Positions 2,523 through 58,772 of a stretch of DNA of 64,000 bases are shown here, in pieces. Within the stretch, counting starts at the first letter, position 1, and each line of letters opens with the position of its first letter. Location of the stretch: the NCBI RefSeq assembly GCF_009193155.1, contig NZ_VUKD01000001.1, positions 186,001 through 250,000 on the forward strand, in the 5' to 3' direction. Source of the DNA: Georgenia subflava. GTDB taxonomy: Bacteria; Actinomycetota; Actinomycetes; Actinomycetales; Actinomycetaceae. Position numbers and translations under genes: made by a program. The notes beneath the pieces were generated by a model. That model did no database searches. It was not told where the DNA came from and saw only the letters and a list, made by a program, of their open reading frames with translations.

Positions 2523-4001
2523 ATGCGCATCGCTCTGCTGCCGCCCGACGAACGTCCGAACACGGCCGGGTACGCCCGCACGGTCGGAGCCTGCTGCGAC
2601 GTCGAGGTGGTGCTGCCGCCCGCGGAGGCGATGCCACGCTTCCGCGAGCCGGCCGACACCGGGGCGCTGGCCGACTGGCTGCGCGCGGTCGCCCACGAGG
2701 TGGACCACGTCGCCGTCTCGCTCGACCTCCTCGTCCACGGCGGCCTGATCCCCTCGCGCAACACCGACGACCGCGTCCAGGACGTGCTCCCGCGCCTGGA
2801 CGTCCTCCGCGAGCTCGCGGTACCGGTGACCGCGTACCAGGTGGTCACCCGTCTGCCGCACTACGACAACGCCTCGCGCTCGCGCCAGGAGCCGGGGTAC
2901 TGGTCCACCCACGGCGCCCGCATCGGTCGCCTCTCGAGACTGTGGGACCAGCACGCCGCCGGCGAGGCCGGCGACGCCGAGGTCGCGGCGGCCCGGGCGG
3001 AGGTCCCCGACGACGTCGTCGCGGACCTCGTGCGGCGCCGCCTGCGCAACCACGTCGTCAACCTCGCCGCTCTCGAGCTGGCCTCGGACGGCGTCGTGAA
3101 CGCCTTGCTCCTGACCTCGGACGACACCGCCCCGCGAGGGCTGCCCGCCGCGGACCGGCGCGCCCTGGCGACGTGGATCGACCGGCTTTGCGTCGACGTG
3201 CTGACCTACCCGGGCGCGGACGAGGTGCCGAGCGTGCTGGTGGCCCGGGTCGCCGCCGAGGCGAGAGGCGTCCGGCCCCGAGTGGCGGTGCGCTGCCCCG
3301 CGCCGGGCGGGCTGGAGCGGATCGCCCCCTACGAGGACCGCCCGGTCGGCGCCGGTCTGGCTAACCAAATCCGCGCGCTCGGCGGTGTGCGGGTGGACGA
3401 GCCCGACGACGCCGATCTCGTCCTGGTGCTGCACGCCCCCGCGACCGAGCCCGGTGACTGGGTGATGGACCCGCCGGCGCAGGACAGCGCCGCGGACAGC
3501 GCCGCCGTCGTCGCGGAGGTCGGCGAGCACCTCGCTCTCGGCAGGCGCGTGGCGGTGGCGGACGTGCGTTACGCCAACGGCTCCGACCCCACGCTGCTCG
3601 ATGCCCTCGACGACGCCGGGCTGCTGGGCCGGCTCGTGGCCTACGGCGGCTGGAACACCGCCGGCAACACCATCGGCACGACCCTGGCGGCCGGCGTCAG
3701 CCCGGTGCTCGGCACCTCCGAGGAGGCGGCCGCCGCCCGCCGGGAGTTCCTCGCACGCAAGATCGTCGAGGACGGCCACTACCTGCCGGTGGTCCGTGCG
3801 GCCATCCAGGCAGAGGCCGCCGGAGCCGGCCTGCTGGACCCGCCGCTCGCGGAGCTGCCCGCGGTGCACCGCCGCATCACCGAGGACCTCGACACGTGGG
3901 CCCGCGGGGTGCGGGCGCTCTCGGGCTACCGGGTCGCCGACGCCCGCCTCCCCTGGGGCTACACCTTCACGGTCGACTTCGACCTCGAGCGCACCGGCTG
4001 A
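2523..4001 (+). CDS. DUF4127 family protein, cytoplasmic paralog
   Basis: 492 residues, no signal peptide, ATG at 2523 after a strong AGGAGG 6 nt upstream. Family hallmarks are visible: LPPDERP at residues 6-12, SLDLLVHGGLIPSRN in the first third, a DD pair (LLLTSDDTAP), YPGADEVPS, DVRYANGSDP and YGGWNTAGNT. The last six correspond position by position to motifs in the two secreted paralogs at 54514-56973 and 57006-58772, which have QDD, YPGAD and SGWN. DUF4127 has, to my knowledge, no established reaction. Conserved Asp, Arg and Trp-Asn motifs suggest an enzyme active site (inference). It is divergent from propeller gene 1 and shares its operators, so it is probably induced by the same sugar. 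Being cytoplasmic, it may act on an imported fragment. Confidence 0.85.
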   Translation: MRIALLPPDERPNTAGYARTVGACCDVEVVLPPAEAMPRFREPADTGALADWLRAVAHEVDHVAVSLDLLVHGGLIPSRNTDDRVQDVLPRLDVLRELAVPVTAYQVVTRLPHYDNASRSRQEPGYWSTHGARIGRLSRLWDQHAAGEAGDAEVAAARAEVPDDVVADLVRRRLRNHVVNLAALELASDGVVNALLLTSDDTAPRGLPAADRRALATWIDRLCVDVLTYPGADEVPSVLVARVAAEARGVRPRVAVRCPAPGGLERIAPYEDRPVGAGLANQIRALGGVRVDEPDDADLVLVLHAPATEPGDWVMDPPAQDSAADSAAVVAEVGEHLALGRRVAVADVRYANGSDPTLLDALDDAGLLGRLVAYGGWNTAGNTIGTTLAAGVSPVLGTSEEAAAARREFLARKIVEDGHYLPVVRAAIQAEAAGAGLLDPPLAELPAVHRRITEDLDTWARGVRALSGYRVADARLPWGYTFTVDFDLERTG

Positions 4002-4045
4002 ACCCGCCGATCTCCCTTGCTCGCACGACGGTCATCCGGCCACGC

Positions 4046-6253
4046 TCACAGGCCGTCGCGGTAGGTGGCGAAGAGGTTGGACAGGTCGTAGACACCGTTG
4101 CCGCCCTGGCTCGGGGCGCCGTAGTCGCTGGTGTTCCACAGGGTCATCAGCGTGTCGATGTTGCGGTACTCGTTGTCCGTGACCGAGATGCCGTGGGCGT
4201 CGTCCAGGGCCAGGTTGAAGTTCTGCCGGACGACCGCCCGGCGCGTCTCGATGTTGCCCTCGCTCTCGTCCATCAGGATCTCCCGCTTGACCGGGTCCAG
4301 CAGGTGGTCCCACTCGACGCCGTCGTGGTCGACCGGGTTGTAGCCGCGTGCGGTGAGGGTCATCACCCGGCACTGCGGGGCGCACCACCCTTCCTGGGCC
4401 TCGAACACGTTCCCCGCGATCCGGTACGGGCCGGGCGAGAAGAACTCGTTGCCCGGTTCGGTCGTGTTGTACAGCGCCCACTGGATGAACTGGACGTTGT
4501 TGATCCAGGTGCCGCTCGAGACGAAGATGTTGTCCTCGATCACCCAGTCGCCGACGTTGTCGCGGAGCTTGACGTAGGTCCCCGCCGAGTCCTGCAGGAC
4601 CGACTCGCTCACCCGCACCGTCGTCGCCCCGCGCGTGGCATACACGTGGTGGTAGCCCGCGCCCGACCCGCCGCGGGCGAACAGGCCGTCGTCGACGACG
4701 ACGTCCACGACACCCGGACCGCTCGGCACGGTTCCCGCCACACCGACGCCGGAGTACTTGACCCCCGGCATGTCGGTGAGCGAGATCCCTCGCACGATGA
4801 TCCCCTCGGTGCGCTCGCCGGCCGTCGGGTCCTCGGTGATCAGGAAGGCCGACGGGGTCACGTAGGTGCCATCGGCGGTCAGGTGGATGTTCTCCACGGT
4901 CAGGTTCACGACGTCACGGACCTGGACCACGTAGGTGGTCAGGTCGGCCCGTTGGGTCAGCACCACACCGAACCGGGACTCACCGCTCACCAGCAGCCGA
5001 TGGTCGTCCGACCCGATCCCGCGCAGGTGAAGGGCATCGTCGTCGGTCGCCACGTCGTACTGCCCGTCGGTCAGGACGACCCGGGCCGTGCCGGTCTCCA
5101 GTGCTGCGTCCACCTCCTGCCAGAACGCGTCGTCGCGATAGTCCGCGGCCGACTCCGGGGTCGACCCGTCCGCCGATCCCAGCGCGCTCGGCGCCGCGTA
5201 GAACGTCGTGTCCCAGTGGGGAGTCACTGTGACGTCGTCGACCAGGGTGTCGCACCGGACCGTACCGGTGCAGCCGATGATCAGCTCGGCCTCGACCGTG
5301 CCGCTCGGGGCGAGCGAGGTCAGTGACGACTCCTGCCACCGACCGGGCACGACGTCGATCCCGCTCCGGTCGGTGCCGATGACCTCGCCGTGCCTGTCGT
5401 AGTAGCGCAGAGCCGCGTGCATCACCGGCGTTCCCCGTTGGCGGAGCGCCTTCATGCTGAGGGAGTAGCGGGCGGCCTCCGACGCCGAGAACCGGGTGCC
5501 GACCGCACCGCTCCACTCGTCGCCCGTGGACACGTGGGGCCGGATGGCGAGGACGCCGTTGGCCGCGTCGGTCGGGTCCGGCACGACCGAGCCCGCCTGC
5601 CGGGCGTCGTCGAGCTCGTACCAGCCCCACGGGGTGGCCGACCCGTCGTTCTGGACGTGGAAGTACTGGTTGGCGGTCAGGGAGGCGTTCGCGCCCGGAG
5701 CGAGGTCGACGGCGTCGACGAAGAACGTGCCCGTGCGGTTGCTGAGCGAGTAGATGACGACCTGGGCGTGGGTGGCACCGTCAGGAGCCCAGGCTGACAC
5801 GGCCGGGAAGGCGCGCCACTCGCCGCGCTGGGTCGATGCGCTCGTGGCCGTGCTGTCGAGCTCCCGTCCGGCGGAGTCGTAGAACTTGAGGTAGAGCAGC
5901 GGGGCGTGGCCGCTCGCCACGTAGGAGAGTGCGGTCGCGGTGTACTGCTTGCCGGGGTCGACCCGGATCGCGTTGGAAGCCCATCCGACCGCCGACGAGC
6001 TGGAGCTGTCGACGATCCGCAGGGAACGCTGACCGTGAGAGGCCCGTAGGTCGCTCACCGCCGCCTCGGTGCCGGCACCCTGGGCGAAGCTCGACCAGCC
6101 GGCGTCGGCCTCGAAGCTTCCGTTCTTCAGGCTCTCGTAGGTGCGTGACGTCGTCGCGTCCGCCTCGGCGGACGGGGCGAGCAGGGCGTTCGCCCCGGTC
6201 CCGCCCAGGAGCGCAAGGCCGATCGCTATCGAGCCCAGCCGTCTGCTGATCAT
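4046..6253 (-). CDS. Secreted right-handed beta-helix protein with two CBM-like domains
   Basis: 735 residues. Signal peptide at about 1-32. Two successive galactose-binding-like (CBM4/9-type) domains follow at about 40-190 ('NGSFEADAGW') and 195-345. A parallel beta-helix with pectin-lyase-like rungs then runs from about 355 to the end (opening 'AAPSALGSADGSTPES', then strands such as NLTVENIHL and WVIEDNIF). The fold is typical of polysaccharide lyases (PL1, PL6) and some glycoside hydrolases. I cannot assign a family or catalytic residues with certainty. The RBS is GAGGGAAGG before ATG 6253. It lies 97 bp downstream of the propeller 2 stop on the same strand with a hairpin between, so it is probably co-transcribed. 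It is the best candidate for the depolymerising enzyme of this locus. Confidence 0.85.
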   Translation of the reverse strand: MISRRLGSIAIGLALLGGTGANALLAPSAEADATTSRTYESLKNGSFEADAGWSSFAQGAGTEAAVSDLRASHGQRSLRIVDSSSSSAVGWASNAIRVDPGKQYTATALSYVASGHAPLLYLKFYDSAGRELDSTATSASTQRGEWRAFPAVSAWAPDGATHAQVVIYSLSNRTGTFFVDAVDLAPGANASLTANQYFHVQNDGSATPWGWYELDDARQAGSVVPDPTDAANGVLAIRPHVSTGDEWSGAVGTRFSASEAARYSLSMKALRQRGTPVMHAALRYYDRHGEVIGTDRSGIDVVPGRWQESSLTSLAPSGTVEAELIIGCTGTVRCDTLVDDVTVTPHWDTTFYAAPSALGSADGSTPESAADYRDDAFWQEVDAALETGTARVVLTDGQYDVATDDDALHLRGIGSDDHRLLVSGESRFGVVLTQRADLTTYVVQVRDVVNLTVENIHLTADGTYVTPSAFLITEDPTAGERTEGIIVRGISLTDMPGVKYSGVGVAGTVPSGPGVVDVVVDDGLFARGGSGAGYHHVYATRGATTVRVSESVLQDSAGTYVKLRDNVGDWVIEDNIFVSSGTWINNVQFIQWALYNTTEPGNEFFSPGPYRIAGNVFEAQEGWCAPQCRVMTLTARGYNPVDHDGVEWDHLLDPVKREILMDESEGNIETRRAVVRQNFNLALDDAHGISVTDNEYRNIDTLMTLWNTSDYGAPSQGGNGVYDLSNLFATYRDGL

Positions 6254-6304
6254 GGGTGTGCCTTCCCTCTGATGCTTGAGCGGTTCGTGGTCGAGCCGGT
6301 CGCT

Positions 6305-6337
6305 CCCCCGGCCCCGTCGTCGAGACGGGGCCGGGGG
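6305..6337 (-). terminator. Intercistronic GC hairpin
   Basis: A perfect 14-bp inverted repeat: CCCCCGGCCCCGTC at 6305-6318 and its complement at 6324-6337, with a 5-nt loop. It sits between the stop of propeller gene 2 (6351) and the start of the beta-helix gene (6253). There is no T-run. It may be a partial terminator or a 3' stabiliser that sets the ratio of the two products. Confidence 0.65.
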
Positions 6338-6350
6338 CGCGACCTTCGTG

Positions 6351-8783
6351 TCAGCCGGCGCAGCTCACCCCCGCGTAGTCGAGCTCCTGCACGGCGTGCG
6401 CGGGACCGTCGCCTTGGGCGGCGTTGCCGGGCAGGGCCTCGATGCGGACCGTGCCGTCGGCGATCTCGGCGGCCCCGGTCGCGACACCGACCTCCGCGGT
6501 GGCCCCGGGCCGGATCAGCCCGCTCGTCGCCGCACCGGCGTCGGTGCGGACGCGGACGCTGATGGGCCGGTGGTCCTCGTTCGTCACGCTGACGCGCGGC
6601 GTCGCCACCCCGTCCTCGCACACGGCCGCCGCGGTGGCCGTGAACTCGATGGCCGCCTCGGTGCCGTCGTCGGCGGCCGGGACGTCGTACTTGTACACGT
6701 GGACGCCCGAGGAGAACACCACGTCACCGGCGGCGTCGATGTTGAGGTAGTTGCCCACTCCGTTGACGAGCTTGGTGTACTCCATGGTCTCTGCGTCGAT
6801 CCGGAAGAGCTGGGAGCGGTTCGTGCCGTAGACGTTGCCGTCGCTCCCGATGCCCAGGTAGGCCCACGCCCACACGGTGCTCGTGCCGTAGCGCGTGCCG
6901 AGCAGGGCCTCGGAGTAGACGATCTCCTCGGTGGCGGGGTCGTACTTGAACACGGTGTCCTCGGAGACGCCCCAGATCAGGTCGTCCGGGCCGACCATCA
7001 GCCCGGTGACGCCCTCGTCGCCCGGCACGGGCACGAAGTCGTGGATCTTCGCGCCGGTCGCCGGGTCGACGACGATGAAGTGCGCCTCGGTCTGCCCGGA
7101 CGGCTCGGCCCCCAGTCCGCCGTCGAGCGTGGTGCCGACGTAGACCAGGCCGTCGTGGTGGAGCACCGAGATGACCGACTGCTCGGTGACGATCTCGTCC
7201 GTCCAGACTGTCTTCTCGCCCGAGGCGAAGTCGTACCGCGTCAGCGCGCCCTGGTTGTGGCCGTAGTACGGGACGGTCCCCATCCAGGCCGTGTCCGTGA
7301 CCGGGTCGTAGTCCAGCCCGAACGGCCGGTCCTGGTTCTCCGCCTGCAGGGTGAAGACCTCGCGCGGCGTCGCACCGGTGGCGGGGTCGTACTCCAGGAG
7401 CCGGCCGTGCCCGTAGGTGCCGAGCAGCATCTTGCCCTCGCGCACCGCCGAGGACTCGAACTGGCCCGCCTGCACGGTCTCCCCGGCCTCGCCGGTGACG
7501 GTGTCCAACGGTGCCAGACCGACCATGTAGCCCGAGGCGTACATCGAGTCGGGCCCGTCGAGGAGCTTCTGGACCAGGATCGGGTTGCGGTAGTCGATGT
7601 CCGCCCCCTCAGAGATGCCGCGCTCGGGGTTGAACTTGACGACGCCCTGCTGCGTCGCCGCGACGAGCGTCCAGCCGGGCCACTCCGGGTCGTCGAGCTG
7701 GGTCCAGTAGCCGTCGTTGAGGTAGCCGTTGTGCGGCACGCCGAGGCTGCGGGTGGTGGCCGTGGCGGCGTCGTACTCCCAGAAGCTCTCCCGGAAGGTG
7801 AAGATGAACTTCTCGGGTGCGTCCGGGCGCTGGGTGACCTGGTAGCCGAACGCCTCCTTGCCGTCGCCCTTCCAGTACTCGACCTCGTCGGTCTCGACGT
7901 CGATGACGAGGAGCTCGCTGAGCCCCCCGCGGGCGAAGAGCTTTCCGCCCGTGACGGTGAAGGTCGAGACGAAGGAGTGGTCCATCGCGCCCGGCGTGGC
8001 CTCCTCGCTGAGCAGCGCGGTCTTCGTGCCGTCCGGCTCGATCTTGTAGATCTGGGCGCGCGAGCCGCCCACGCCGACGTAGAGGTTGCCCCGTTCGAGG
8101 TCGTAGGCGAGCGCGCGGATGTACTTCTGCGTGGGGTCGACCTGGCCGAGGTTCTCGATGGCACCGGTGGCCGGGTCGTACAGGTACAGCAGCCCCTCAG
8201 GGTAGCTGCCGATGTACATCCGGCCGTCCTCGGCGGCGGCGAGCGTCCACCCGTACCCGTCGCTGGGCGAGCCGGGGTTGATGTGGCCGAGGTTGGTGGC
8301 CTCCGTCGTCTCCGGGTCGTAGACCCACAGGGTGTAGTCCGAGCCGGTGACGAAGTAGATCCTGCCGTCCGTCGCACGCCGGATCTCCGTGACGTGGTCG
8401 GTCTCCGCCAGCTTGATCGTGCGCACGATCTCCCCGGTGAGGGTCTCGGCGACGACGAGCGTGGCCGGGCTCTCGGTGTCGCCCTGGCCCCGGTACACCC
8501 CGTAGGTCATGGAGACGCCGTCCTCCTCGCCGAGCACCATGTTGGTGATGATCCGGCTGGTGACGGGCGTGCCGAGGTCGGAGAGGTTCGGGTTCTGCGC
8601 GAGGATCTCCTCGGGCGTGGGGTTGGACGGCAGACGCGGTGGTTCGGCCTCGGCGGACGTGCCGGGCGCGGGCTCCGCAACTGCACCGGACTGGGTCGCG
8701 GTCGCCCCGGCCAGCGCCATCGCACCGGCGAGCAGGGACGCCGCGAGCCACCGGGCCCGGGGTCTGACGGGGACTGCACTCAC
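6351..8783 (-). CDS. Secreted beta-propeller protein 2
   Basis: 810 residues from GTG at 8783, preceded by GAGGAGAAG; the frame is open further upstream but that part crosses the promoter. The signal peptide has an Arg-rich start (VRPRAR) and an Ala/Leu core, ending near residue 40. Unlike paralogs 1 and 3 it lacks the N-terminal CBM-like domain and starts directly with propeller blades after a short 'PTPEEILAQNPN' segment. A small beta-rich C-terminal domain with two Cys follows at about residues 715-810. Blades show repeated YDPATG and DGRxYIGSY motifs. The shared signature reads QSVISVLHHDGLVYVGT, then GGLGAEPSGQTEA. Two LacI-type operators lie upstream. The function is not recognised; a carbohydrate-binding or lyase-like propeller is a guess from context. 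Confidence 0.85.
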   Translation of the reverse strand: MSAVPVRPRARWLAASLLAGAMALAGATATQSGAVAEPAPGTSAEAEPPRLPSNPTPEEILAQNPNLSDLGTPVTSRIITNMVLGEEDGVSMTYGVYRGQGDTESPATLVVAETLTGEIVRTIKLAETDHVTEIRRATDGRIYFVTGSDYTLWVYDPETTEATNLGHINPGSPSDGYGWTLAAAEDGRMYIGSYPEGLLYLYDPATGAIENLGQVDPTQKYIRALAYDLERGNLYVGVGGSRAQIYKIEPDGTKTALLSEEATPGAMDHSFVSTFTVTGGKLFARGGLSELLVIDVETDEVEYWKGDGKEAFGYQVTQRPDAPEKFIFTFRESFWEYDAATATTRSLGVPHNGYLNDGYWTQLDDPEWPGWTLVAATQQGVVKFNPERGISEGADIDYRNPILVQKLLDGPDSMYASGYMVGLAPLDTVTGEAGETVQAGQFESSAVREGKMLLGTYGHGRLLEYDPATGATPREVFTLQAENQDRPFGLDYDPVTDTAWMGTVPYYGHNQGALTRYDFASGEKTVWTDEIVTEQSVISVLHHDGLVYVGTTLDGGLGAEPSGQTEAHFIVVDPATGAKIHDFVPVPGDEGVTGLMVGPDDLIWGVSEDTVFKYDPATEEIVYSEALLGTRYGTSTVWAWAYLGIGSDGNVYGTNRSQLFRIDAETMEYTKLVNGVGNYLNIDAAGDVVFSSGVHVYKYDVPAADDGTEAAIEFTATAAAVCEDGVATPRVSVTNEDHRPISVRVRTDAGAATSGLIRPGATAEVGVATGAAEIADGTVRIEALPGNAAQGDGPAHAVQELDYAGVSCAG

Positions 8784-8937
8784 GAGCTTCTCCTCACGCG
8801 GTTGGCTCTGCCGTCGTCGTCGGCGGCAGCCGCAGCAGCCGAAGGGGACCCGCACGAGCGCGCGGGAGACCCCGTCCGTGCCGGCCCGGGCGGCAAGGGT
8901 TCCCCGCCCGGGCGGCCGACCGGCTTGCGGTGTGTCC

Positions 8938-8966
8938 AACCTTGCATGCAACCGATTGCAGAACAA
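8938..8966 (-). promoter_or_regulatory. Promoter of propeller gene 2 with operator in the spacer
   Basis: On the minus strand: -35 TTGTTC (8961-8966), 17-bp spacer, -10 AAGGTT (8938-8943). The spacer contains the palindrome TGCAACCGATTGCA (8947-8960, plus-strand reading). This is the layout of the propeller 3 promoter and implies steric repression. Confidence 0.75.
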
Positions 8967-9004
8967 GGTCCCGCCCCTGTCAGGAACCGGACATGGCAGG
9001 TTCC

Positions 9005-9018
9005 TGCAATCGGTTGCG
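9005..9018. promoter_or_regulatory. Auxiliary LacI-family operator (TGCAATCGGTTGCG)
   Basis: Copy of the same palindrome with one terminal mismatch, 58 bp centre to centre from the operator at 8947-8960. It lies 5 bp after the propeller 3 stop codon. The paired arrangement would permit looping or cooperative binding; that is inference. Confidence 0.65.
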
Positions 9019-9023
9019 ATCAC

Positions 9024-11543
9024 TCAGGGCCGATAGCTGAAGACGTTCGTCTCGTCGGCGAGGTAGATGGTTCCGTCAGGCGCGACGGCGGAGTGGCGCG
9101 CACCGTCGCCGACGAGCGTGACGAACCGCTCGGTCTGCGGGTCGAACGAGAACAGGCGCCCGTCGGCGTTGCCGTACAGCTTGCCGTCCGGGTGCAGGTA
9201 CAGCTCGCTCAGCCGGCCCCAGTCGTTGCTCGCTCGCGCGGGCGTCTTCACGCTCCGGACCACGTCGTGCGTGGCGGTGTCGTACTGGAAGAGCGTGCCG
9301 TCGCTCGCCAGTCCCCACAACCGTCCGTCCCTGTCGAAGGTGAGGGCATGGATCACCTCGGCACCTTCGGCCACCACCGAGTGCGTGACGAGCCGGTCAC
9401 GCCGGGCGTCCCACACGAAGAGCTCGGCCTCGTCCTGCGTCGGGTCGGTGGAGAGGCCGCCGTGGATCCCGGTCCCGCCGAAGATCAGTCCGTCTCGGTA
9501 GGCGAGGGCGGTCACGCTCTGGTCCGGGACGAGGTTGCGGTGCACCTCGAACTTCCCGTTGGCCGGGTTGAAGAGCGTGAGCGCACCACCCAGCTCGCCG
9601 TAGTTCGGGATCGTTCCCGCAGCGACCCGCGACCCTGCCGAGACCATGGCGAGCGGGCGGTCCTGACCGTGCTCCCCGCGGCCCAGGCTGAACAGGTGCG
9701 TGGGGCTGACACCCCACTCCCACTGCTGGTTCGGCTGGGCGACGTAGAACTCGGCGCCGGGGTAGGTGCCGACCACCGTGCGGTTGCGGTGCGCGACGAT
9801 GCTGTCGGCCTGCTTGGGGCCGCTGAGCTGCTCGAGCGTGCCCGTCGAGGTGTCCACGCGGGCCATGACGCCGGAGCTGAGGTAGGCGCCGAAGTAGACG
9901 TTCCCGTCGCCGCCGTGCCCGACCGAGTGGACCGTGGCGGGGGCGCCGACGATTCCTGGGGTCATGACGGTGCCCACGCCGGTGCCGAGGTGCTGGCGCC
10001 ACACGCGCCCGTCCACCCGTATGCCGACGAGGCTGTCGCCGGGCAGCCCCTCGGTGCCCAGCTCGACGAGCGCGAGGTCGTTCGTGCCGTCGAGCTCGCC
10101 GGCGAGGTCGCCGGACTCCCAGCCGATGTCGGTGACCTCGCGGGTGGCCACGTCGAGGGCGCGCACGGTCCCGTCGACGGTGAACAGCATCCGACCGTCC
10201 GCCTCGTCCGCGGTCCACTGGCCGGTGACGCCCTCGAGCGGCTCGAGCCACCTGCGAGCGGTGAGGTCGTAGACGGCGGTGTTCGCCGCACCGGCAGGTG
10301 AGTAGCTGACCAGCACGAGGTCGCCGTGCTGCTCCACGCGCGTGATGAAGTCGGCCTGCTCGGCCACGTCCGCCGGAAGTGCCATCTCGGTCACCGTGCC
10401 GGTGACGGGATCGAGCTCGAGCAGGTGCGGGGTGGTGCCGGTACCGACCCAGAGCTTGCCGTCGACCATGTCGAAGCCCCAGGCGTAGGCGGAGCCGTCG
10501 TCGACCATGCTGCCGTAGTCGCGGATCTCCCCGGTGGTCAGGTCGTAGGAGAAGACCTTGGCGTTGGGATAGGTGCTGCCGTAGAGGACGCCGTCCTCGA
10601 TGACGAGGCTGCGCAGGAGGGACTCGCCGGCGATCCGGCCGGCCAGGCGCTCGACCTCCTGGGTCTGCGGGTCGTAGCGCCACAGCGTGCCGTCGTTCGG
10701 GCCCCGCACGCTGAAGTAGACCGAGTCGTCGTCGGCCACCACGACGGAGGCCGCGATCGAGTAACCGTCCATGTCGTGGCTGTCCACCAGCTCACCGGTG
10801 CGCAGGTCCACGACGTTGAGGCTCACGGGCTGACCGTCCGAGAAGACGTAGGCGAGCGGGGTGCCGTCGGCGAGCACGTCCACCTCCGCGAGCCGCACGT
10901 TCGGGCTGTAGAACGCAGGCCCGAGATCGGTGATGTCGAGCGGGCCGTGGGTGTGCTCCAGCCGCACCTCGTCGACGTAGTACGTCGAGACCCGGGCGAT
11001 CGTGGAGTACAGGTACACGGAGGCCGTGGCCGCGCCCTCCGGGGCAGTGACGTCGAGAACCAGCTCCGACCACTCCCCCACCGGCTGGCCGGAGAAGTGC
11101 TGGAACTCCACGTCGAGCTCGGCGCCGTCCGCGTCGTGGAAGTAGACGTAGACCGTCGGCGTCCCCGTCTCGACGAGAGCCTGGAGCGAGAGCTGGTAGG
11201 AGTGGCCCGCCTGCACCGTCATCGGGTCGCTCATCAGGCCGTAGGACCGCGTGGCCTCCGGGTCGACGAACCGGAGGCTGCGCTCCCCCGCGAAGACGGG
11301 ATCCTCGACGAGGACCGAGCCGCCGAGGTCGCCGCCGCGCTGCGACCAGCCGGGGATGCCGCCGTCGACCGGGGCGTCCTCGAAACCTCCGTTGACGGGC
11401 CCGGGCGACAGCTCCGCGGGGTCGCCGGTCGCGGCGCCTGCCGGCAGAGCCAGGGCCGCCGGGACCATCAGGGCGAGGCCGGCGAGGAGCACCCCCCACC
11501 GCCGTCGGGTGGGGCGAAGGGCAGGTGGGCGCTTGTCATCCAT
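9024..11543 (-). CDS. Secreted CBM-like plus beta-propeller protein 3
   Basis: 839 residues from ATG at 11543 after GGAGAGG (6 nt). An in-frame ATG 21 nt upstream has no RBS. Signal peptide at about 1-42 (PTRRRWG, then a Leu/Ala core ending LPAGAAT). A CBM4/9-like domain follows at about 50-205 ('NGGFEDAP' to 'STYYVDEVRLEH'), then propeller blades to the C-terminus. The signature shared with paralogs 1 and 2 is QSVTALAYRDGLIFGGTG, then GGLSTDP and ELFVWD. The last blade ends 'DETNVFSYRP', with no anchor or sorting signal. It is transcribed from its own regulated promoter (11598-11626). Domain architecture matches protein 1 more closely than protein 2. The substrate is unknown. Confidence 0.85.
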   Translation of the reverse strand: MDDKRPPALRPTRRRWGVLLAGLALMVPAALALPAGAATGDPAELSPGPVNGGFEDAPVDGGIPGWSQRGGDLGGSVLVEDPVFAGERSLRFVDPEATRSYGLMSDPMTVQAGHSYQLSLQALVETGTPTVYVYFHDADGAELDVEFQHFSGQPVGEWSELVLDVTAPEGAATASVYLYSTIARVSTYYVDEVRLEHTHGPLDITDLGPAFYSPNVRLAEVDVLADGTPLAYVFSDGQPVSLNVVDLRTGELVDSHDMDGYSIAASVVVADDDSVYFSVRGPNDGTLWRYDPQTQEVERLAGRIAGESLLRSLVIEDGVLYGSTYPNAKVFSYDLTTGEIRDYGSMVDDGSAYAWGFDMVDGKLWVGTGTTPHLLELDPVTGTVTEMALPADVAEQADFITRVEQHGDLVLVSYSPAGAANTAVYDLTARRWLEPLEGVTGQWTADEADGRMLFTVDGTVRALDVATREVTDIGWESGDLAGELDGTNDLALVELGTEGLPGDSLVGIRVDGRVWRQHLGTGVGTVMTPGIVGAPATVHSVGHGGDGNVYFGAYLSSGVMARVDTSTGTLEQLSGPKQADSIVAHRNRTVVGTYPGAEFYVAQPNQQWEWGVSPTHLFSLGRGEHGQDRPLAMVSAGSRVAAGTIPNYGELGGALTLFNPANGKFEVHRNLVPDQSVTALAYRDGLIFGGTGIHGGLSTDPTQDEAELFVWDARRDRLVTHSVVAEGAEVIHALTFDRDGRLWGLASDGTLFQYDTATHDVVRSVKTPARASNDWGRLSELYLHPDGKLYGNADGRLFSFDPQTERFVTLVGDGARHSAVAPDGTIYLADETNVFSYRP

Positions 11544-11597
11544 GAGAGACCTCTCCAGCAACATCGGTGTCGGGACGGATCGCGAGGAAGCGACGCG

Positions 11598-11626
11598 AAC
11601 CTATTGCAACCGATTGCAGGAGTCAA
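11598..11626 (-). promoter_or_regulatory. Promoter of propeller gene 3 with operator in the spacer
   Basis: On the minus strand: -35 TTGACT (11621-11626), 17-bp spacer, -10 TAGGTT (11598-11603). The spacer contains the LacI-type palindrome TGCAACCGATTGCA at 11605-11618. It is the clearest promoter-operator unit of the regulon. The 157 bp to its right, up to the aldolase stop at 11776, hold no gene; they contain two copies of CACGGCGGCGCCGCC. Confidence 0.8.
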
Positions 11627-11775
11627 GGGTGGGCCCACGGCGGCGCCGCCGCGCGCAGGGCACCACCGAGGGCGCCTGCCCGTCGACCACCTGCGGGCCG
11701 TCGAGCTGGTCATCGCCACGCCAGAGCCACGGCGGCGCCGCCACGCCAGGCGTGACGGCGCCGTGAAGCCAGCTC

Positions 11776-12840
11776 TCAGGCCAGCCACTCCTCGACGTGG
11801 GTGGCGACGAAGCCCTCGTCGAGCAGGTCGGGGTGACGCTCGCGCACGGTGGCGATCAGCTCGGCCTGCCCGGGCGAGAGGACGTCGGGCCCGAGGCACC
11901 GTGCGGTGCGCACGAGGCCCTGCTGGCGCAGCACCTCGTTGACTCCCGGCACGCACCCGGCGAAGTCGTTGTCGACGTCGAACACCGCGGCGTTGACGTC
12001 GACGAGGGCCGACGCGTCCGCGAGGAGGTCGACCGGGACGGCTCCTTCCGCCGTCGCCGCCCGGACCTTCTCCAGCAGCTGGACCGCGGCCCGGGTGCCG
12101 ACCGCCCACTGCCCGAGGAGTCCGCCGGCCGCGCGTACCTCGCGAACCGTGCCGCCGACCTCGCGCCGGTACGGCGTGATCAGGTCGTGGACGATGGTGT
12201 CGTCGTTCCCGGTGAGCACCACGACGTCGTCCCAGCGGTCGTGCTCGAGGAGGGTCTGGACGACGTCGTTGGTGCGGTACCTGTCGAACGGTGCGGTCTT
12301 GACCGCGACGACGGACTCGAGGTCGAAGAGCCGGCGCCAGTAGTCGCGGCCGAGTCTGCGCCCGCCCACGCTCTCCTGGAGGTAGAACCCCATGGTCGGC
12401 AGCACCTCGCCGACGGCGCGGGCGCGGTCCAGCAGCGCCTCCTCGGTCACCTCGGCCATGCCCCACCCGCACAGCAGCGCGGCCTGGTAGCCGGCAGCAG
12501 CGGCGATCTCGGCCTCGGCGACGGCGTCCGCGGTGTCGCCGGTGAGCCCTGCCACCAGGAGCGCGTCACCGCCGGCCGCCGCCACCTCCGACGCGGCGAG
12601 GCGCCAGACCTCCTCGAGGAGGCCGCGGTCGTCGTGCAGCTCGAACTGGCTGGTGTGCACGCCCACCGCCATCCCGTGCGCCCCGGCCGCGAGGTAGTAC
12701 CGGGTCAGGGCCCGCTGGGCCCGCAGGTCCACCGCACCGCCGTCGTCGAGCGCCAGCGGGTGCGCCGGGATGACGACGCCGGAACGCAGCCGCCGGGTCA
12801 GGACGTCGGAGCGCAGCGGTTCGGTCAGGACGCCGGCCAT
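11776..12840 (-). CDS. DapA/N-acetylneuraminate lyase-family aldolase
   Basis: 354 residues. A TIM-barrel class I aldolase of the dihydrodipicolinate synthase family. The family expects a Schiff-base Lys; K181 in VVAVKTAPF fits, with Tyr153 (MGFYLQ) as the likely partner. It is longer than DapA (about 290), with a C-terminal helical extension. Members of this branch cleave or dehydrate 2-keto sugar acids rather than make lysine precursors. The start ATG (12840) shares its A with the TGA of the upstream dehydrogenase, so the two are translationally coupled. It is the last gene of the Nramp-dehydrogenase-aldolase operon. The likely substrate is a keto-sugar acid; which one cannot be read from sequence. 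Confidence 0.85.
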   Translation of the reverse strand: MAGVLTEPLRSDVLTRRLRSGVVIPAHPLALDDGGAVDLRAQRALTRYYLAAGAHGMAVGVHTSQFELHDDRGLLEEVWRLAASEVAAAGGDALLVAGLTGDTADAVAEAEIAAAAGYQAALLCGWGMAEVTEEALLDRARAVGEVLPTMGFYLQESVGGRRLGRDYWRRLFDLESVVAVKTAPFDRYRTNDVVQTLLEHDRWDDVVVLTGNDDTIVHDLITPYRREVGGTVREVRAAGGLLGQWAVGTRAAVQLLEKVRAATAEGAVPVDLLADASALVDVNAAVFDVDNDFAGCVPGVNEVLRQQGLVRTARCLGPDVLSPGQAELIATVRERHPDLLDEGFVATHVEEWLA

Positions 12841-15109: not shown

Positions 15110-15133
15110 GGCAGAAAGCCTTTTCTCGAAGGT

Positions 15134-15172: not shown

Positions 15173-15349
15173 GAACCACGGCGAGCCGGTGGGCTCTGAC
15201 CTCCGCGGTTCCAGCATCGGAGCTGGGCAGACCCCGCGGAGTTCGGCGGCATCCGCGGAGCTCGAGGAACCCGTGGACCTCGGGCAGCCGCCCGGCCGGT
15301 TGGGGGCCGCGTGCCGGCGGCTCGCCGCGGTCTCGCTAGGGTTCCCGGC

Positions 15350-50526: not shown

Positions 50527-51921
50527 CTACCGAGCGGCCGAGGCGGCCGCGATGACGGCCGGGACGTCCAGCAGGCCCGCTCCCGTGGCATTCGCGCCCC
50601 AGGTGATCGTCGTCGTGGTGCCGGTCGGGTCGAGAACGTCGCGCGAGCCTGGCTGGAGCGGGATCGCCGTCGCCTCGAGGAGCTGCTCCGCCGCAGTCTG
50701 GTCGAGCCCGGGGCTCGCCTCGAGCATGAGCGCCACGGTCCCGGCGACGTGCGGGGCAGCCATCGAGGTGCCGCCCAGGAAGTAGTAGCCCAGCTGCGCG
50801 TTCGTCTGCATCGGCCCGACGATCCACGAGCCCGGCGCGGCGACGTCGAGATCCTGGTCCTCGAGGGCGCGGGAGGAGAACGCGGTGATGTAGGCCGCAC
50901 CGGCCGCCTCCGCCGCGGTGGCGTGCTCCGGTACGTCGCTGCCGTTCCACCAGCTCGGGCCGCCGGCCCACTCCCCCGTCCAGCCGTTCGCCGCCACCGA
51001 GATGACCGGTGCGTAGGCACCCGGGTACCCCATCCCGGCCTCGCCGGAGTTGCCGGCGGCCGCGACGACGATGATGCCGTTGGCGATGGCGCGGTCGACG
51101 GCGGCCTTCTCCATCGCGTCCAGGGCGGGGCCGCCGAGGGACATGTTGATGACCACCGGGGAGTCACCGAGGACGCCGTCGACCTTGAGGTCGGTGACGT
51201 AGTCGATGCCTGCGGCGATCACCGACGACCAGCCGGAGCCGTTCTGGTTCAGCACCTTCACCGGGATGACGGTCGCCTCGGGCGCGACGCCGCCGACCGG
51301 GACGCCGTCGAGGTTGTACCCGAGGATCGTGCTGGTCACGTGCGTGCCGTGGCCGTTGACGTCCTGGGACCACTTGTTGGGCTGGGTGGAGACGCTGCCC
51401 CGCTCACCCCCGCCACCACCGAAGGAGATCCCGAGGTCGGCGGCGATGCGGTCCTCGCCGAAGTAGTGCCGCCAGCTGGAGTGCAGGCCGGTGTCGAGGA
51501 CCGCGACGTAGACGTCCTCGCCGGTCTGCTCCACCGAGCGCGCACCGAGGCTGAGCGGGGTGTCGTAGACGCCGATCTGGTCCGTGTTCCAGGTTCCGAG
51601 GCCGCTGGTGGTGTCCGTGAACGGTGAGCTCGGGACGGGCTTGCCGACGCGCTGCGCGTCCGGGGTGGCCGCCTCGACGAATGGCAGGGCACGCAGGGCC
51701 GGCAGGTCTGAGCTGCGGACCTTCATGGTGAGCGCGTCGATGTCCGGGTACTGCGAGTTGATCCGGCCGAGGTCGTCGAGCTGCGCCACCAGGGCCGGGG
51801 TGATGTCGGTGCTGAGGACCACGTTGACCCCGACCTGTGGCCCGCCGGCCGCGGATGCGGCGGGGACGAGCGCCAGGGAGGCGGCGGCGAGCGTGGCAAG
51901 ACCGGTCAGTGCACGGCGCAT
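50527..51921 (-). CDS. Secreted subtilisin-family serine protease (S8)
   Basis: 464 residues from ATG 51921 (GAAGGACTG). Signal peptide at 1-24. A propeptide-like segment follows, then the S8 domain with Asp143 (VLDTGLH), His191 (GHGTHVTS), Asn291 (AAGNSGEAG) and Ser386 (GGTSMAAPHVAG): a complete triad and oxyanion Asn. No C-terminal domain or anchor. Probably an extracellular scavenging protease. Its end is 216 bp upstream of the CHAT gene; that gap has no gene. Confidence 0.94.
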   Translation of the reverse strand: MRRALTGLATLAAASLALVPAASAAGGPQVGVNVVLSTDITPALVAQLDDLGRINSQYPDIDALTMKVRSSDLPALRALPFVEAATPDAQRVGKPVPSSPFTDTTSGLGTWNTDQIGVYDTPLSLGARSVEQTGEDVYVAVLDTGLHSSWRHYFGEDRIAADLGISFGGGGGERGSVSTQPNKWSQDVNGHGTHVTSTILGYNLDGVPVGGVAPEATVIPVKVLNQNGSGWSSVIAAGIDYVTDLKVDGVLGDSPVVINMSLGGPALDAMEKAAVDRAIANGIIVVAAAGNSGEAGMGYPGAYAPVISVAANGWTGEWAGGPSWWNGSDVPEHATAAEAAGAAYITAFSSRALEDQDLDVAAPGSWIVGPMQTNAQLGYYFLGGTSMAAPHVAGTVALMLEASPGLDQTAAEQLLEATAIPLQPGSRDVLDPTGTTTTITWGANATGAGLLDVPAVIAAASAAR

Positions 51922-52125: not shown

Positions 52126-52132
52126 TGTCCGG

Positions 52133-54513: not shown

Positions 54514-56973
54514 TCAGGCGTGGCAGCTGCTGGTGCGGCAGGTCGCCTCGATCTCGTACAGGCGGACCCGGGAGTCGACCGTGCCGGTCACCTCCAGGCG
54601 CACCGCGTCGACGGTGACCGGGGCGAAGGAGTGCAGCGTCGTGCTCTCGGCGTTGTCGGCAACCTCGACGAGCACCTCCCACACCCCGTCGACGCTGCCC
54701 AGCAGCCGGTACTCACGCAGCTGGTACGGCGTCGCGTACTGGAACAGCTCGACGGTGTCGATCGTCTCCGGCCGCGACAGGTCCACCTGGAGCCAGTGCG
54801 CGGCAGCGGCCCCGGTCAGCCACCGGCTGCCGTTGCTCACCCGGTTGCCGTCGATCGCGAACGCCGGCTGGTACGCACCGGAGTGCCCCGACGACGTCGC
54901 CACCGCACCGGACGCCCCCAGGAGCACGTTGCGCCAGGCCGCCGAGACCACCCCGGCCGCCGACGCCTCGAGCACGCGCTCGCCAGTGACGGCCGACGTA
55001 TGGGTCACCCCCACCGAGTATTCGGCTGCCGACTCCGCCGCCAGCGGTGCCGTCACCAGGTCCAGCTCGACCTCGGCCACCTCGAAGGGACCCAGGTCCA
55101 CGACCACGGGCCCCGGTACCGTCCACCCCTGCGGCGCCGAGACGGCCACCTCCGCCGACACCTGGGCACCGACGTCGTTGCGCACCACCACCGAGACCGG
55201 CACGGACACCTCCGTCTCCGGACGCACCCCCAGCTCGTAGGGCAGCACCGACACCGACAGCAACGCGGACCGGTCAGCCACGTCCCGCGGGATCCGCAGG
55301 GTCGGGTAGAGCTCCATCTCCTGGTAGCGGAACCATGCGAGCTCCATCTGCCACGAGCTGAGGCCCGACACGGATCCGGTGAGCTCGGTGCGCCCGTCGT
55401 GCCCGAGGCGCAGCGGCGCACCAGCGAACTCCTCCGCGTAGAGGTCCTCGACGAGCGGGCGCGTCCGGTCGATGGCCAGCTGGTTGGCCTCGTCGAAGAC
55501 GTCGGTCATGTACATCGGGTCGTCGCCGTTGCGCTCGGCGAACGCCTTGATGTCGTCGCGGACCTCGTTGCGGAACATCTGGGTGTGGGCGAGCTCCTGC
55601 AGCAGGAGCTCGCGGTCGGCGACCGCGGCACGCTCGAGGAGCCGTCCCGTCGCCTCGACAACCGGCGTCGCGGCAGGGGACCCCGGCAGCAGCGTGCCCT
55701 CCCGGGACGCCTCGAGCAGGGCAGAGTGGACGACGGACTGCGCCAGGGAGATTCCGACGTTCCAGCCGGACCAGGACGCGAGCTGACCGATCTGGATCCG
55801 CGGCGCGAGCAGGCGGTACAGCTCGGGGTCGACCTCGCCGGCGATGGCGTCGTCACCGACGGCGACGGTCCGTCCCTCGGCGACGGCGGCTTGGATCCTG
55901 TCCGCGAACGGCTCCAGGCTCCCGCCGCCCGCGGTGTTCGCCATAAGCAGGACGTCCGCGTACGGGTCGTCCACGACGGTGCCACCCACCGTCGTGGCGT
56001 ACTCCTCGACAAGCTCGGCGTACGGGATGTCCTGGTAGGGCGCGACCCACTCGTCACCCGGAGTCCGTGACCACTCCACGTCGACAGTGGTCTCCACGTC
56101 GAGCCGTTCGGTCACGTGCTTGGCGCTGAGTAGCGCGCCGACGACATCGGCGCCGGGATAGATCTTCACCTTCTCCTCGACGCCAAGCTCGGCGACCAGA
56201 TCGCGCAGCGCGATCTGCTCGGCCCGCTGAGGACCGAACGCCGTGGTGTCGTCCTGGCCGAGGATGAGGTAGTCGACCACCCCGTCGGCCACCCGCTGGA
56301 CCATCTCGCGGTTGATCTGGTGGTTGCGCTCGCGCGTGCACCAGTAGTCGTCCTTGAGCTCCTGCGGGATCTCGTCCGCGAGAGCCTCGTACTCGGCGCG
56401 ATACTCCTCCTGCCCGAGCGTGACCACCCGGTCGTGGAGGACGGCCCAGTCTCGGATCTTCCCGGCATACGTGCCGGGGTAGGAACCGTAGGGCTCGATG
56501 GTCAGCCGCATGATGACGTCGAACGCATACACCGGCTGCTCCGGGTTGGCGGCCCGGACCTCCTCGAACACGTCAAGGCGCTCGCTGGCCTCCTCGATCG
56601 TGCTGCGGCACTGTCGGGAGGCGACGAGGCCGCCGTAGGCGAGCATCGGCACGGCGACCACCGAGCCGTCGGCGTCCTCGGCGGCACCGGACCACCAGTC
56701 CGCGACCCCCTCGGCGTCGCCGGCCGTGAGGAACTCACCGAGCATGGTTGTGTCGGGCACGGCCGTGTCGAACCCACCTGCCCGGGCGACAGCCGCGGGC
56801 GTGTAGGCGGGGAAGGGCCGGTCGTCCATCGGGACGATCGCGAGCCTCCCGAGGCTGTCCGGCGGGCCAGGGACTGCTGGCGGTGCGGCGGCGGCCGGCG
56901 CGACTGCCGCGACCGCCGAGAGACCCATCAGAAGGGCGGCGGCGGCCGCGGCGAGCGTGCGTCGTGAGCTCAT
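54514..56973 (-). CDS. Secreted DUF4127-NEW3-F5/8C fusion protein
   Basis: 819 residues from ATG 56973 (AAGGAGAA). Signal peptide at about 1-30. The DUF4127 domain spans about 40-560: VPMDDRP, LAYGGLVASRQ, VIMRLTIEPYG, LGQDDTTAFGP, YPGADVVGALL, VGDDAIAGEVDP, WSGWNVGISLA. Then a NEW3/NPCBM-associated-like beta domain (about 590-660: VSAEVAVSAPQGWTV). A discoidin/F5/8 type C domain (about 675-810: NVLLGASGAVATSSG, HWLQVDLSRPETIDTVELFQY) closes it, and such domains usually bind glycans. The fusion is the best evidence that DUF4127 acts on carbohydrate. The gap to the upstream DUF4127 gene is 32 bp; to the GH43-like gene, 92 bp. Confidence 0.88.
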   Translation of the reverse strand: MSSRRTLAAAAAALLMGLSAVAAVAPAAAAPPAVPGPPDSLGRLAIVPMDDRPFPAYTPAAVARAGGFDTAVPDTTMLGEFLTAGDAEGVADWWSGAAEDADGSVVAVPMLAYGGLVASRQCRSTIEEASERLDVFEEVRAANPEQPVYAFDVIMRLTIEPYGSYPGTYAGKIRDWAVLHDRVVTLGQEEYRAEYEALADEIPQELKDDYWCTRERNHQINREMVQRVADGVVDYLILGQDDTTAFGPQRAEQIALRDLVAELGVEEKVKIYPGADVVGALLSAKHVTERLDVETTVDVEWSRTPGDEWVAPYQDIPYAELVEEYATTVGGTVVDDPYADVLLMANTAGGGSLEPFADRIQAAVAEGRTVAVGDDAIAGEVDPELYRLLAPRIQIGQLASWSGWNVGISLAQSVVHSALLEASREGTLLPGSPAATPVVEATGRLLERAAVADRELLLQELAHTQMFRNEVRDDIKAFAERNGDDPMYMTDVFDEANQLAIDRTRPLVEDLYAEEFAGAPLRLGHDGRTELTGSVSGLSSWQMELAWFRYQEMELYPTLRIPRDVADRSALLSVSVLPYELGVRPETEVSVPVSVVVRNDVGAQVSAEVAVSAPQGWTVPGPVVVDLGPFEVAEVELDLVTAPLAAESAAEYSVGVTHTSAVTGERVLEASAAGVVSAAWRNVLLGASGAVATSSGHSGAYQPAFAIDGNRVSNGSRWLTGAAAAHWLQVDLSRPETIDTVELFQYATPYQLREYRLLGSVDGVWEVLVEVADNAESTTLHSFAPVTVDAVRLEVTGTVDSRVRLYEIEATCRTSSCHA

Positions 56974-57005
56974 CGTCGTTCTCCTTCGGCTGCGATCAGC
57001 TGGGG

Positions 57006-58772
57006 TCAGCCGACCGACGCGGCGATCTCGGGCTCGGCCGCGATCTCGCCGGTGCGCAGCCAGGGCAGGTAGATGTTCCACTCCTCGACGTCGGTGGCTA
57101 CCAGCTCCAGCGCCTCGCCGGCCACCGTGCCGACGGGCCGGGCGACACCGTCGAAGTGCTCGTCGAACAGGTCCTGGGCGTACGGCAGCGTGTGCTCGCG
57201 GGCGTAGGCGTCGACCTCGTCGTAATAGGTCTGCAGGTCCTGCGGGTTCGGCTCGCCGAGCGACGAGGCATACGCCGTCGTGTCGTTGCGGACGTAGGTG
57301 CGGTAGGAGTTGGTCTGGACCCACTCCGACAGCGTCAGCTCGAGTGTGTGCTCTGCCGCCTCGCTCAGCAGGCTCGTGCGCCCCTCGTCGATCGGCCCGC
57401 CGCGGCCGTTGGCACTGCCCGGTGGCAGGTCACCCCGTTCCGCGCGGTGCAGGAGGGCATCACGGCTGAGCGACTGTGAGATCGGGATGCCGATGTTCCA
57501 CCCCGAGTAGGCGACCAGCTCGCCACGGTCGATCTCCGGGTCGAGCAGGTCCATCAGCCGCATGTCGGTCCGTCCGGCGATGGCATCGTCGCCGAGGGCG
57601 ACCGTCCGGCCGTCCTCCACATACTCGATGACCCGGTCGGCGAAAGGCTGCACCGAGGCCGAGCTGCCTCCGGTGTTGGCCATGAGGACCACGTCGGCGT
57701 CGTCGATGTCCGTGGTCATCCGGCCGCCGATGGTGTTGACGTACCCCTCGATGAGGTCCTCGTACGGGATGTTCTGGTACGGCGCCGTCCACTCCGAGCC
57801 GTGCACCCGGGAGTACTCGACGTAGACGGCCGGCTCGGTGCCGGCGTCCTCGACCGCCAGCTTCGCCAGCAGCAGCGACGAGACGGTGTCCGCCCCCGGG
57901 TACAGCACCACGCGGTCCTCGACGCCGAGCTCGCGGATCCGCTCCGCCAGCGCGGCCGCCTCAGGGCGGTGCAGCCCGGTCCCGGAGGCGTCGTCCTGAC
58001 CGATGATCAGGTAGTCGAAGATCCCCTCGGCCGCCCACTCGATCATCTCGAGGTTCAGCTCGTGGTTTCGTTGCCGGGTTGCCAGGTAGTCGTCTCGCAC
58101 CTCCTGCGGGATCTTCGCCTCCATGGCCTCCAGCTCGGCGCGCTTGTCCTCCTGTCCGAGGTTCTCCACCTCGTCCACGAGGGTCGCCCAGATCCGGAGA
58201 TCGGTGCGCCACGGCCCCTCGGGGGTCAGGCGCATGATGGTGTCGAAGGCGTAGAGCCGCTCCCCCGGGTTCTGCTTCTTCACGGTCCGGACGGCCTCGA
58301 GGTTCGCCAGCGCCTGCTCCTGCGGCACGCTGCTGTTGCGCGAGTTCAGCAGCCCGCCGTACGCGAGCATCGGCAGCGCGACGACGGCGTCGTCCGCCTG
58401 GCGGGCTGCCTGCACGAGCCACTCGGCCGCCGCGGCGCCGTCGCCAGGAGTGAAGTGGCGGCCGAGGACCTCGTGCTCAGGGGTGGTCACCTCGTATCCC
58501 GCACCGGCCCCGAGCTTGAGCGGGGCGTACCAGGTGTAGGGGCGGTCGTCGAGCGGGACGAGCGCCACCTCGCCCAGGTCGGACTGACCGGGCGGCAGGC
58601 CGTCTCCGCGCCAGACCGAGCGCGAGTCGTCGGCGACCGTCGCCGTCGCGGTGGTCGTGCTGGTCCCCGTCGCAGCGGTGGCCGGAGCCGTCGCCGCGGC
58701 GATCAGTGCCGCCGTCGCCGGAAGTACTGCGCAGGCGAGGAGTCGTCGGTGGTTCGTCGAACGGACACGCAT
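57006..58772 (-). CDS. Secreted DUF4127 protein, single domain
   Basis: 588 residues from ATG 58772 (GGGGAT). Signal peptide at about 1-34, then a Thr/Ala-rich linker. The DUF4127 domain runs to the end: VPLDDRP, LAYGGLLNSRN, TIMRLTPEGPW, IGQDDASGTGL, YPGADTVSSLL, LGDDAIAGRTD, YSGWNIGIPIS. It is clearly paralogous to the downstream fusion protein but lacks the added domains. First gene of a three-gene secreted operon under a candidate LacI operator (58880-58893). Two related secreted copies in one operon may act on different linkages or sizes of the same polymer (inference). Confidence 0.88.
   Translation of the reverse strand: MRVRSTNHRRLLACAVLPATAALIAAATAPATAATGTSTTTATATVADDSRSVWRGDGLPPGQSDLGEVALVPLDDRPYTWYAPLKLGAGAGYEVTTPEHEVLGRHFTPGDGAAAAEWLVQAARQADDAVVALPMLAYGGLLNSRNSSVPQEQALANLEAVRTVKKQNPGERLYAFDTIMRLTPEGPWRTDLRIWATLVDEVENLGQEDKRAELEAMEAKIPQEVRDDYLATRQRNHELNLEMIEWAAEGIFDYLIIGQDDASGTGLHRPEAAALAERIRELGVEDRVVLYPGADTVSSLLLAKLAVEDAGTEPAVYVEYSRVHGSEWTAPYQNIPYEDLIEGYVNTIGGRMTTDIDDADVVLMANTGGSSASVQPFADRVIEYVEDGRTVALGDDAIAGRTDMRLMDLLDPEIDRGELVAYSGWNIGIPISQSLSRDALLHRAERGDLPPGSANGRGGPIDEGRTSLLSEAAEHTLELTLSEWVQTNSYRTYVRNDTTAYASSLGEPNPQDLQTYYDEVDAYAREHTLPYAQDLFDEHFDGVARPVGTVAGEALELVATDVEEWNIYLPWLRTGEIAAEPEIAASVG

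Follow-up and report, generated by a model that had tools for sequence, protein, structure and literature searches.

The window analysed here is a stretch of 64,000 nucleotides from Georgenia subflava (C3:186001-250000, in a genome of 4.32 Mb on 11 contigs). It contains three genes of the DUF4127 family (Pfam PF13552), P0001 in locus 1 and P0002 and P0003 in locus 2. The original prediction described them as DUF4127 paralogs with shared motifs, and the Pfam scan confirms that they are full-length. All three match the whole profile, with 390 bits for P0001, 329 for P0002 and 354 for P0003 against the curated cut-off of 27. The shared motifs are present in the order P0001/P0002/P0003 as DERP/DDRP/DDRP and GGLIPSR/GGLVASR/GGLLNSR, together with DD, YPGAD and GWN. 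Signal peptides and compartments were assigned by reading the translations, with no predictor. P0001 reads as cytoplasmic and the other two as secreted, as had been proposed. In addition to the family domain, P0002 and P0003 have signal peptides, and P0002 has a CBM32 domain. Both of these genes are on the minus strand, for which the earlier description gave no strand. The family has no assigned function, and none of the papers in the collection searched names DUF4127 or PF13552.

The genome carries five DUF4127 copies in total. The two additional copies lie just beyond the right end of the window, at C3:254275-255816 and C3:256738-258261. Including its tail, the C3:254275 copy shares 55% identity with P0002 across 771 residues. 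Four of the five copies read as secreted. A number of five is unusual, as the other positive genomes in our surveys carry one or two matches each. The family is sparse. It is found in 6 of 296 Actinomycetota genomes and in 4 of 59 relatives (G. subflava counted in both), and in 4 of 151 genomes from the phylum of one Chloroflexota locus (centre genome counted).

Operators and genes at the two loci

LacI-type regulators and operators had been proposed at both loci. Pattern searches bear this out and reveal two different operators for the two loci. At locus 1, a LacI gene is found together with palindromic, central-CG candidate operators upstream of genes, which is the arrangement of a LacI-type regulon. 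With up to one mismatch, TGCAAYCGNTTGCR occurs at 5 sites in the window (10 strand-hits), where the expected number is 0.09. Exact matches to TGCAAYCGNTTGCA amount to 18 strand-hits in the genome, all inside the 47-kb stretch C3:151402-197618. Nine strand-hits have one mismatch, of which seven are inside the same stretch and two (one site) are on C6. The reversed pattern, used as a control, has 5 + 5 hits across the genome, compared with 13 + 14.

The P0001 operator is common to genes for 2-epimerase-like, NagA-like and NagB-like proteins, a CUT1-type ABC transporter and an AXE1 esterase. These genes are in the left part of the operator stretch, where the E values are 6.8e-41 for the 2-epimerase-like, 9.2e-50 for the NagA-like and 4.2e-33 for the NagB-like (glucosamine-6-phosphate deaminase) protein. 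Operators at C3:151402 and 151462 separate the NagA-like and NagB-like genes from the 2-epimerase-like gene. The left part also contains a LacI regulator, an enolase-superfamily gene, a 2-hydroxyacid dehydrogenase gene and two more propellers, and the middle part contains three Gfo/Idh/MocA pairs and further propellers. Locus 1 may resemble the nag operons (NagA, NagB) for N-acetylglucosamine (GlcNAc) in three gene types, all matching below the NCBIfam cut-offs. DUF4127, propellers and Gfo pairs are not known from nag operons. In Haloactinopolyspora, LacI, NagA-like and NagB-like gene types also seem to lie near the P0001 orthologue, as read from the sequences.

Locus 2 has a plus-strand arm with LacI, a FAD oxidoreductase, an ABC transporter, a pectate-lyase-like protein with CBM32 and two DUF4127 copies. 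The opposite, divergent arm encodes P0003, P0002 and a GH43-like protein. The candidate operator pattern was derived from the two sites of this locus themselves, and a genome search with it, allowing up to one mismatch, found no third site. Two related genomes, G301 and G341, conserve the order LacI, flavoprotein, transporter and 807-residue DUF4127. G341 also has another DUF4127 match, covering profile positions 1-45 only, in a frame upstream of the locus-2-like LacI gene (L109:13951-15507).

In the genome G085, the gene divergent from a locus-2-like cluster encodes a PL8 lyase, a place taken in the window by the secreted DUF4127 genes. The identity to the window's proteins is 43% for LacI, 60% for the FAD oxidoreductase, 54% for the substrate-binding protein and 63 and 66% for the permeases. 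The best PDB matches of the PL8 lyase (L133:12059-14500) are xanthan lyases, which score 442 bits, while the next kind of match reaches 346. One possibility is that DUF4127 replaces a PL8 lyase without being homologous to it and acts on an acidic polysaccharide resembling xanthan or a glycosaminoglycan. The enolase-superfamily and 2-hydroxyacid dehydrogenase genes of locus 1, as in sugar-acid catabolism, are in line with such a role. However, we regard it as improbable, since the replacement is seen in one genome only and leaves the NanE, ROK and AGE genes near DUF4127 elsewhere unexplained.

Neighbourhoods in other genomes and on plasmids

Neighbourhoods were collected for the best 80 of 137 relatives by similarity to P0001. 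Genes were called with a simple script and then clustered. Five loci in which no DUF4127 was called and 12 near duplicates were removed, which left 63 non-redundant loci. The scan of unlabelled neighbours covered 114 of 244; 122 had been selected, and 8 of these were dropped, each being long itself or coming from a locus with long genes. Within six genes, the 63 loci contain the FAD oxidoreductase of PF12831 (33 loci), a transporter substrate-binding protein (31), ROK (25), NanE (24), GH38 (16), GHL10 (12), Gfo/Idh/MocA (9) and AGE (4). Across all 80 loci, the FAD oxidoreductase is present in 36, always on the same strand and at most three genes away. NanE is found in 30 (22 of them at most three genes away), ROK in 31 (26), GH38 in 19 (15) and GHL10 in 13 (8). 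The NanE protein tested scores above its cut-off, with 293.5 bits. NanE and ROK occur together in 18 loci (p=1.2e-5), and the FAD oxidoreductase co-occurs with NanE (p=0.0088), both over the 63 loci with kinship ignored. The carbohydrate role of the original prediction is supported by this recurrence of NanE and ROK-family genes and by other frequent partners, namely sugar transporters, 2-epimerases and glycosidases. A cluster of neighbours of about 223 amino acids is also seen in six non-redundant loci (L043:14154-14825 and five more). The member tested has no Pfam or PDB match, and NanE is present in none of the six loci (p=0.07).

The link to the flavoprotein extends to whole genomes. Among the 296 Actinomycetota genomes, the FAD oxidoreductase is found in at least 12, DUF4127 in 6 and both in 5 (p=2.5e-7; 5.2e-6 without G. 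subflava); the first count is a lower bound, with four first-look candidates scored per genome. Six of the seven genomes that have the oxidoreductase without DUF4127 contain sugar transporter or glycosidase genes close by. In the seventh, LacI is encoded there together with a protein homologous to the GH43-like one of the window.

Many of these loci resemble the nan operons for N-acetylmannosamine (ManNAc) catabolism, as NanE, ROK-family and RpiR-type genes adjoin DUF4127. They differ in the addition of DUF4127 and often of the PF12831 flavoprotein. The likeness to nan operons raises the question of whether the clusters are sialic-acid operons, in which DUF4127 would be an unusual sialidase or sialic-acid lyase that gives ManNAc. 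The family has several invariant arginines, such as occur in carboxylate-binding sites. Enzymes that convert 2,7-anhydro-N-acetylneuraminic acid belong to the Gfo/Idh/MocA family. Such a conversion is reported in PMC7315737 and PMC7535918. Still, this explanation is very improbable. No sialidase or NanA lyase (DHDPS/NanA) is present among the 25 of 139 families listed for the 114 unlabelled neighbours scanned, or among the annotated representatives of 10 clusters. Furthermore, many hosts are Chloroflexota or actinomycetes, which we judge unlikely to be users of sialic acid.

Annotated plasmids provided another sample of DUF4127 neighbourhoods. Eight of 72,556 records match DUF4127, and six were examined. 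The Priestia plasmid has genes for an esterase, DUF4127, ROK, manA, the phosphotransferase system (PTS), NanE and RpiR. The Enterococcus faecalis plasmid has RpiR, Lac/Cel IIA, NanE, a HAD hydrolase, DUF4127 and IIC; its DUF4127 frame as called by the script (319 amino acids) is shorter than its tblastn match. The Deinococcus plasmid encodes NagZ, a GH20-like protein, an ABC transporter and a FAD oxidoreductase with DUF4127. The Subdoligranulum plasmid has an ABC transporter and a pfkB kinase, with no NanE or ROK match. The Carnobacterium plasmid encodes NanE, a HAD hydrolase, DUF4127, PTS IIC and RpiR. In its gene run 9034-14361, NanE, the HAD hydrolase and DUF4127 are the sole enzymes. By elimination, DUF4127 would therefore perform the step before ManNAc-6-phosphate.

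The flavoprotein, which is the commonest close partner apart from transporters, allows another explanation. It may make a keto sugar, and DUF4127 may act as an isomerase, lyase or aldolase that cleaves or converts the free or oxidised amino sugar into ManNAc or its phosphate. Oxidation followed by elimination is reported for other sugars in PMC7676230. Some loci contain Gfo/Idh/MocA pairs. By reading, DUF4127 and the flavoprotein both seem to have export signals in Bacteroidota (L076, L078) and Desulfotomaculum (L074). We consider this explanation unlikely, though less so than a sialic-acid or PL8-type role. The Priestia and Carnobacterium regions have no FAD oxidoreductase listed, and the E. 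faecalis region gave no match to one. The window's flavoprotein reads as cytoplasmic, whereas four of the five DUF4127 copies of this genome read as secreted. The FAD oxidoreductase and Gfo/Idh/MocA genes are also not mutually exclusive among the loci (p=0.73).

Conserved residues, predicted structure and proposed reaction

The alignment contains 65 members, which are a set of 63 sequences (including 60 of the 80 loci) and two further copies of G. subflava. The other 20 loci were excluded; they comprise near copies, matches that are partial or poor, several additional relatives, and also L058 and L050, each with a stop codon inside its match. Sixteen residues are invariant in all 65: D9, R11, P12, P32, W52, G73, R79, R110, R173, D201, G231, D233, D347, W377, N378 and G381. 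In a tree of 68 sequences, P0001 clusters with Haloactinopolyspora and Ruania (100/100). The C3:256738 copy clusters with two Bacillus-like sequences (100/99). P0002, P0003 and the C3:254275 copy cluster with copies of G301 and G341 (100/100). The five copies are split over three clades and are therefore not simple tandem duplicates. The third, secreted clade retains all 16 invariant residues. At near-invariant positions, it has E234 changed to V/T/T, E271 to Q, T379 to V/I/V, N382 to I, R413 (K in P0001) to E and D417 to T. The C3:256738 copy retains E234, E271, N382, R413 and D417.

The AlphaFold model of DUF4127 is confident (predicted local distance difference test, pLDDT, 97). In our reading, it consists of two Rossmann-like domains in which the invariant Asp, Arg, Trp and Asn residues follow strands. 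In the model, 12 of the 16 invariant residues are at most 6 residues past a strand end, where the strand list and the distance are our own choice. The proposal that the conserved Asp and Arg form an active site is thus plausible on the model. The structure prediction and search that had been suggested yielded this two-domain model; no whole-length match was found among the PDB chains listed. BFVD, a viral structure library, contains an entry with the DUF4127 fold (A0A346TNQ6; TMq 0.83, 22% identity). The exo-muramidase NamZ (DUF1343, GH171) is a former DUF that acts on amino-sugar glycans and has a Rossmann-like domain. Kinship of DUF4127 to NamZ/GH171 (PF07075) was not detected, with an hhalign probability of 0.1 and E of 0.56 against 10 family members.

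Taken together, it is highly probable that DUF4127 in the cytoplasmic clades is part of N-acetylhexosamine catabolism. More tentatively, and with a chance somewhat short of even, the genomic context suggests that it acts between sugar uptake and ManNAc or its 6-phosphate, most likely by cleaving a glycosidic bond in a ManNAc-containing oligosaccharide. ManNAc glycans occur, for example, in capsules, in secondary cell-wall polymers and in the linkage units of teichoic acids. Outside the cell, secreted propellers would release glycan fragments together with other enzymes, among them a secreted DUF4127 in some genomes, here one with CBM32. This CBM32 counts in favour of a glycan role. The fragments would be imported via a CUT1 or Opp ABC transporter or via PTS and would then be cleaved by DUF4127, with an invariant Asp as acid/base or nucleophile and Arg, Asn and Trp binding the sugar. 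Freed ManNAc would be converted by a ROK kinase and NanE, or by a 2-epimerase and a kinase, to GlcNAc-6-phosphate, the substrate of NagA and then NagB. The flavoprotein or a Gfo/Idh/MocA pair, often present, may oxidise one of the sugars in that glycan. The secreted clade may use the same type of sugar. The links to ManNAc and to the FAD oxidoreductase and the split into three clades were absent from the original prediction, which as a whole is partly supported.

Several points weigh against a ManNAc-releasing glycosidase. The function is inferred from genomic context, and no glycosidase with the whole DUF4127 fold is among the PDB matches listed. No NanE, ROK or Nag gene is present among the called genes of locus 2; therefore, the ManNAc link rests on other clades. 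The near-invariant changes in the secreted clade suggest that its substrate or specificity may differ, and the ManNAc reading is therefore best founded for the other clades. In G. subflava, NanE is located on another contig, the NagA, NagB and 2-epimerase matches of the regulon stay under their thresholds, and the epimerase is the weakest of the genome's three PF07221 matches. The survey of 80 loci is biased to P0001-like copies. Carbohydrate genes, expected around DUF4127 elsewhere, are indeed found in most loci, but 12 of the 63 carry none of ten such neighbour families within six genes. One of these 12, L081, has GH3 and AXE-type genes. The Alkaliphilus plasmid has no annotated sugar gene near DUF4127, and no neighbour-profile match was found around the copy in G318. 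These loci count in part against the original prediction, which took neighbourhoods lacking carbohydrate genes as contrary evidence. The ROK cluster includes regulators, as its L036 member has a MarR domain, and the ROK protein tested scores below all cut-offs listed, with no kinase specificity assigned. Exclusion between AGE and NanE is not significant (NanE in 0 of 4 AGE loci, p=0.29). Four loci with the FAD oxidoreductase (L063, L070, L072, L073) hold distant members or their near copies (26-27% identity, two aligned), and the Deinococcus FAD oxidoreductase scores only 177 bits. Just upstream of the Carnobacterium run, an aldolase gene and further PTS genes are possibly part of it, and genes elsewhere may contribute.

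A broader and more doubtful possibility is that DUF4127 founds a new glycan-cleaving family, with two Rossmann-like domains and no known glycosidase fold, which frees ManNAc or its 6-phosphate from imported oligosaccharides. The family would then define an undescribed pathway for ManNAc glycans, sparse though widespread, that has a flavoprotein dedicated to it. A glycosidase of this kind would add a new fold to the carbohydrate-active enzymes and indicate which bacteria may live on ManNAc glycans. With a confident model, an invariant Asp/Arg/Trp/Asn set and a recurrent ManNAc link in several phyla, this family of no known function is now directly assayable.

Features of the loci

Table 1. Coordinates of features at the two loci (window positions unless marked C3).
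Feature	Position	Strand	Basis or remark
DUF4127 protein P0001, 492 amino acids, no signal peptide, cytoplasmic clade	2523..4001	+	Translation; PF13552 E=1.7e-116
DUF4127 protein P0002, signal peptide and C-terminal CBM32	54514..56973	-	PF13552 E=6.6e-98; PF00754 E=1.3e-14
CBM32 (F5/8 type C) of P0002, residues 702-808 of translation from 57003	54580..54900	-	Pfam, E=1.3e-14
DUF4127 protein P0003, signal peptide, no CBM in Pfam scan	57006..58772	-	PF13552 E=1.7e-105
Candidate LacI-type operator upstream of P0001	2415..2428	.	Pattern search
Candidate LacI-type operator upstream of P0001	2462..2475	.	Pattern search
Candidate LacI-type operator, P0001 regulon	8947..8960	.	Pattern search
Candidate LacI-type operator, P0001 regulon	9005..9018	.	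Pattern search
Candidate LacI-type operator, P0001 regulon	11605..11618	.	Pattern search
LacI gene	15350-16369	+	
LacI-profile match	C3:152838-153821		
Beta-propeller-like protein with CBM_4_9, extends past window start	1..2241	-	Scan of in-window part
Secreted protein with CBM_4_9-like region	4046..6253	-	E=9.5e-05, 23.2 bits, below curated cut-off of 25.9
Secreted beta-propeller-like protein	6351..8720	-	
Secreted beta-propeller-like protein with CBM_4_9	9024..11492	-	
Secreted GH43-like / concanavalin-like protein adjoining P0002	52133..54382	-	GH43_C2 E=1.6e-11; DUF1349 E=4.1e-14; Glyco_hydro_43 0.0065 (below cut-off)
Candidate LacI-type site GTTTTGCGAATGAC	58880..58893	-	Pattern built from 58880 and 59045 sites
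Candidate LacI-type site GTTTTGCGTAAAAC	59045..59058	+	Pattern built from 58880 and 59045 sites
LacI-family regulator, divergent from P0003	59075..60181	+	
FAD-dependent oxidoreductase PF12831, frequent DUF4127 partner	60185..61798	+	E=5.1e-104
Sugar ABC transporter substrate-binding protein	61905..63179	+	
ABC permeases after substrate-binding gene	63179-64105, 64221-65054		Run beyond window end

The operator stretch of locus 1 encodes eight beta-propeller-like paralogs (L113:11661-17604, L086:805-13059, and window 1-2241 and 6351-11492). CBM_4_9 is present in four of the eight, and none has a lyase or hydrolase family match in Pfam. Gfo/Idh/MocA gene pairs are found amid the propellers at L086:3727-5750, 5871-7765 and 13259-15291. 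On the minus strand at 11776-15109, genes of the DHDPS family, the NAD epimerase family and an Nramp-like transporter are divergent from the LacI gene at 15350. Near locus 2, a CHAT-domain protein with weak TPR matches (47725-50310) adjoins a subtilase (50527-51921), both on the minus strand.

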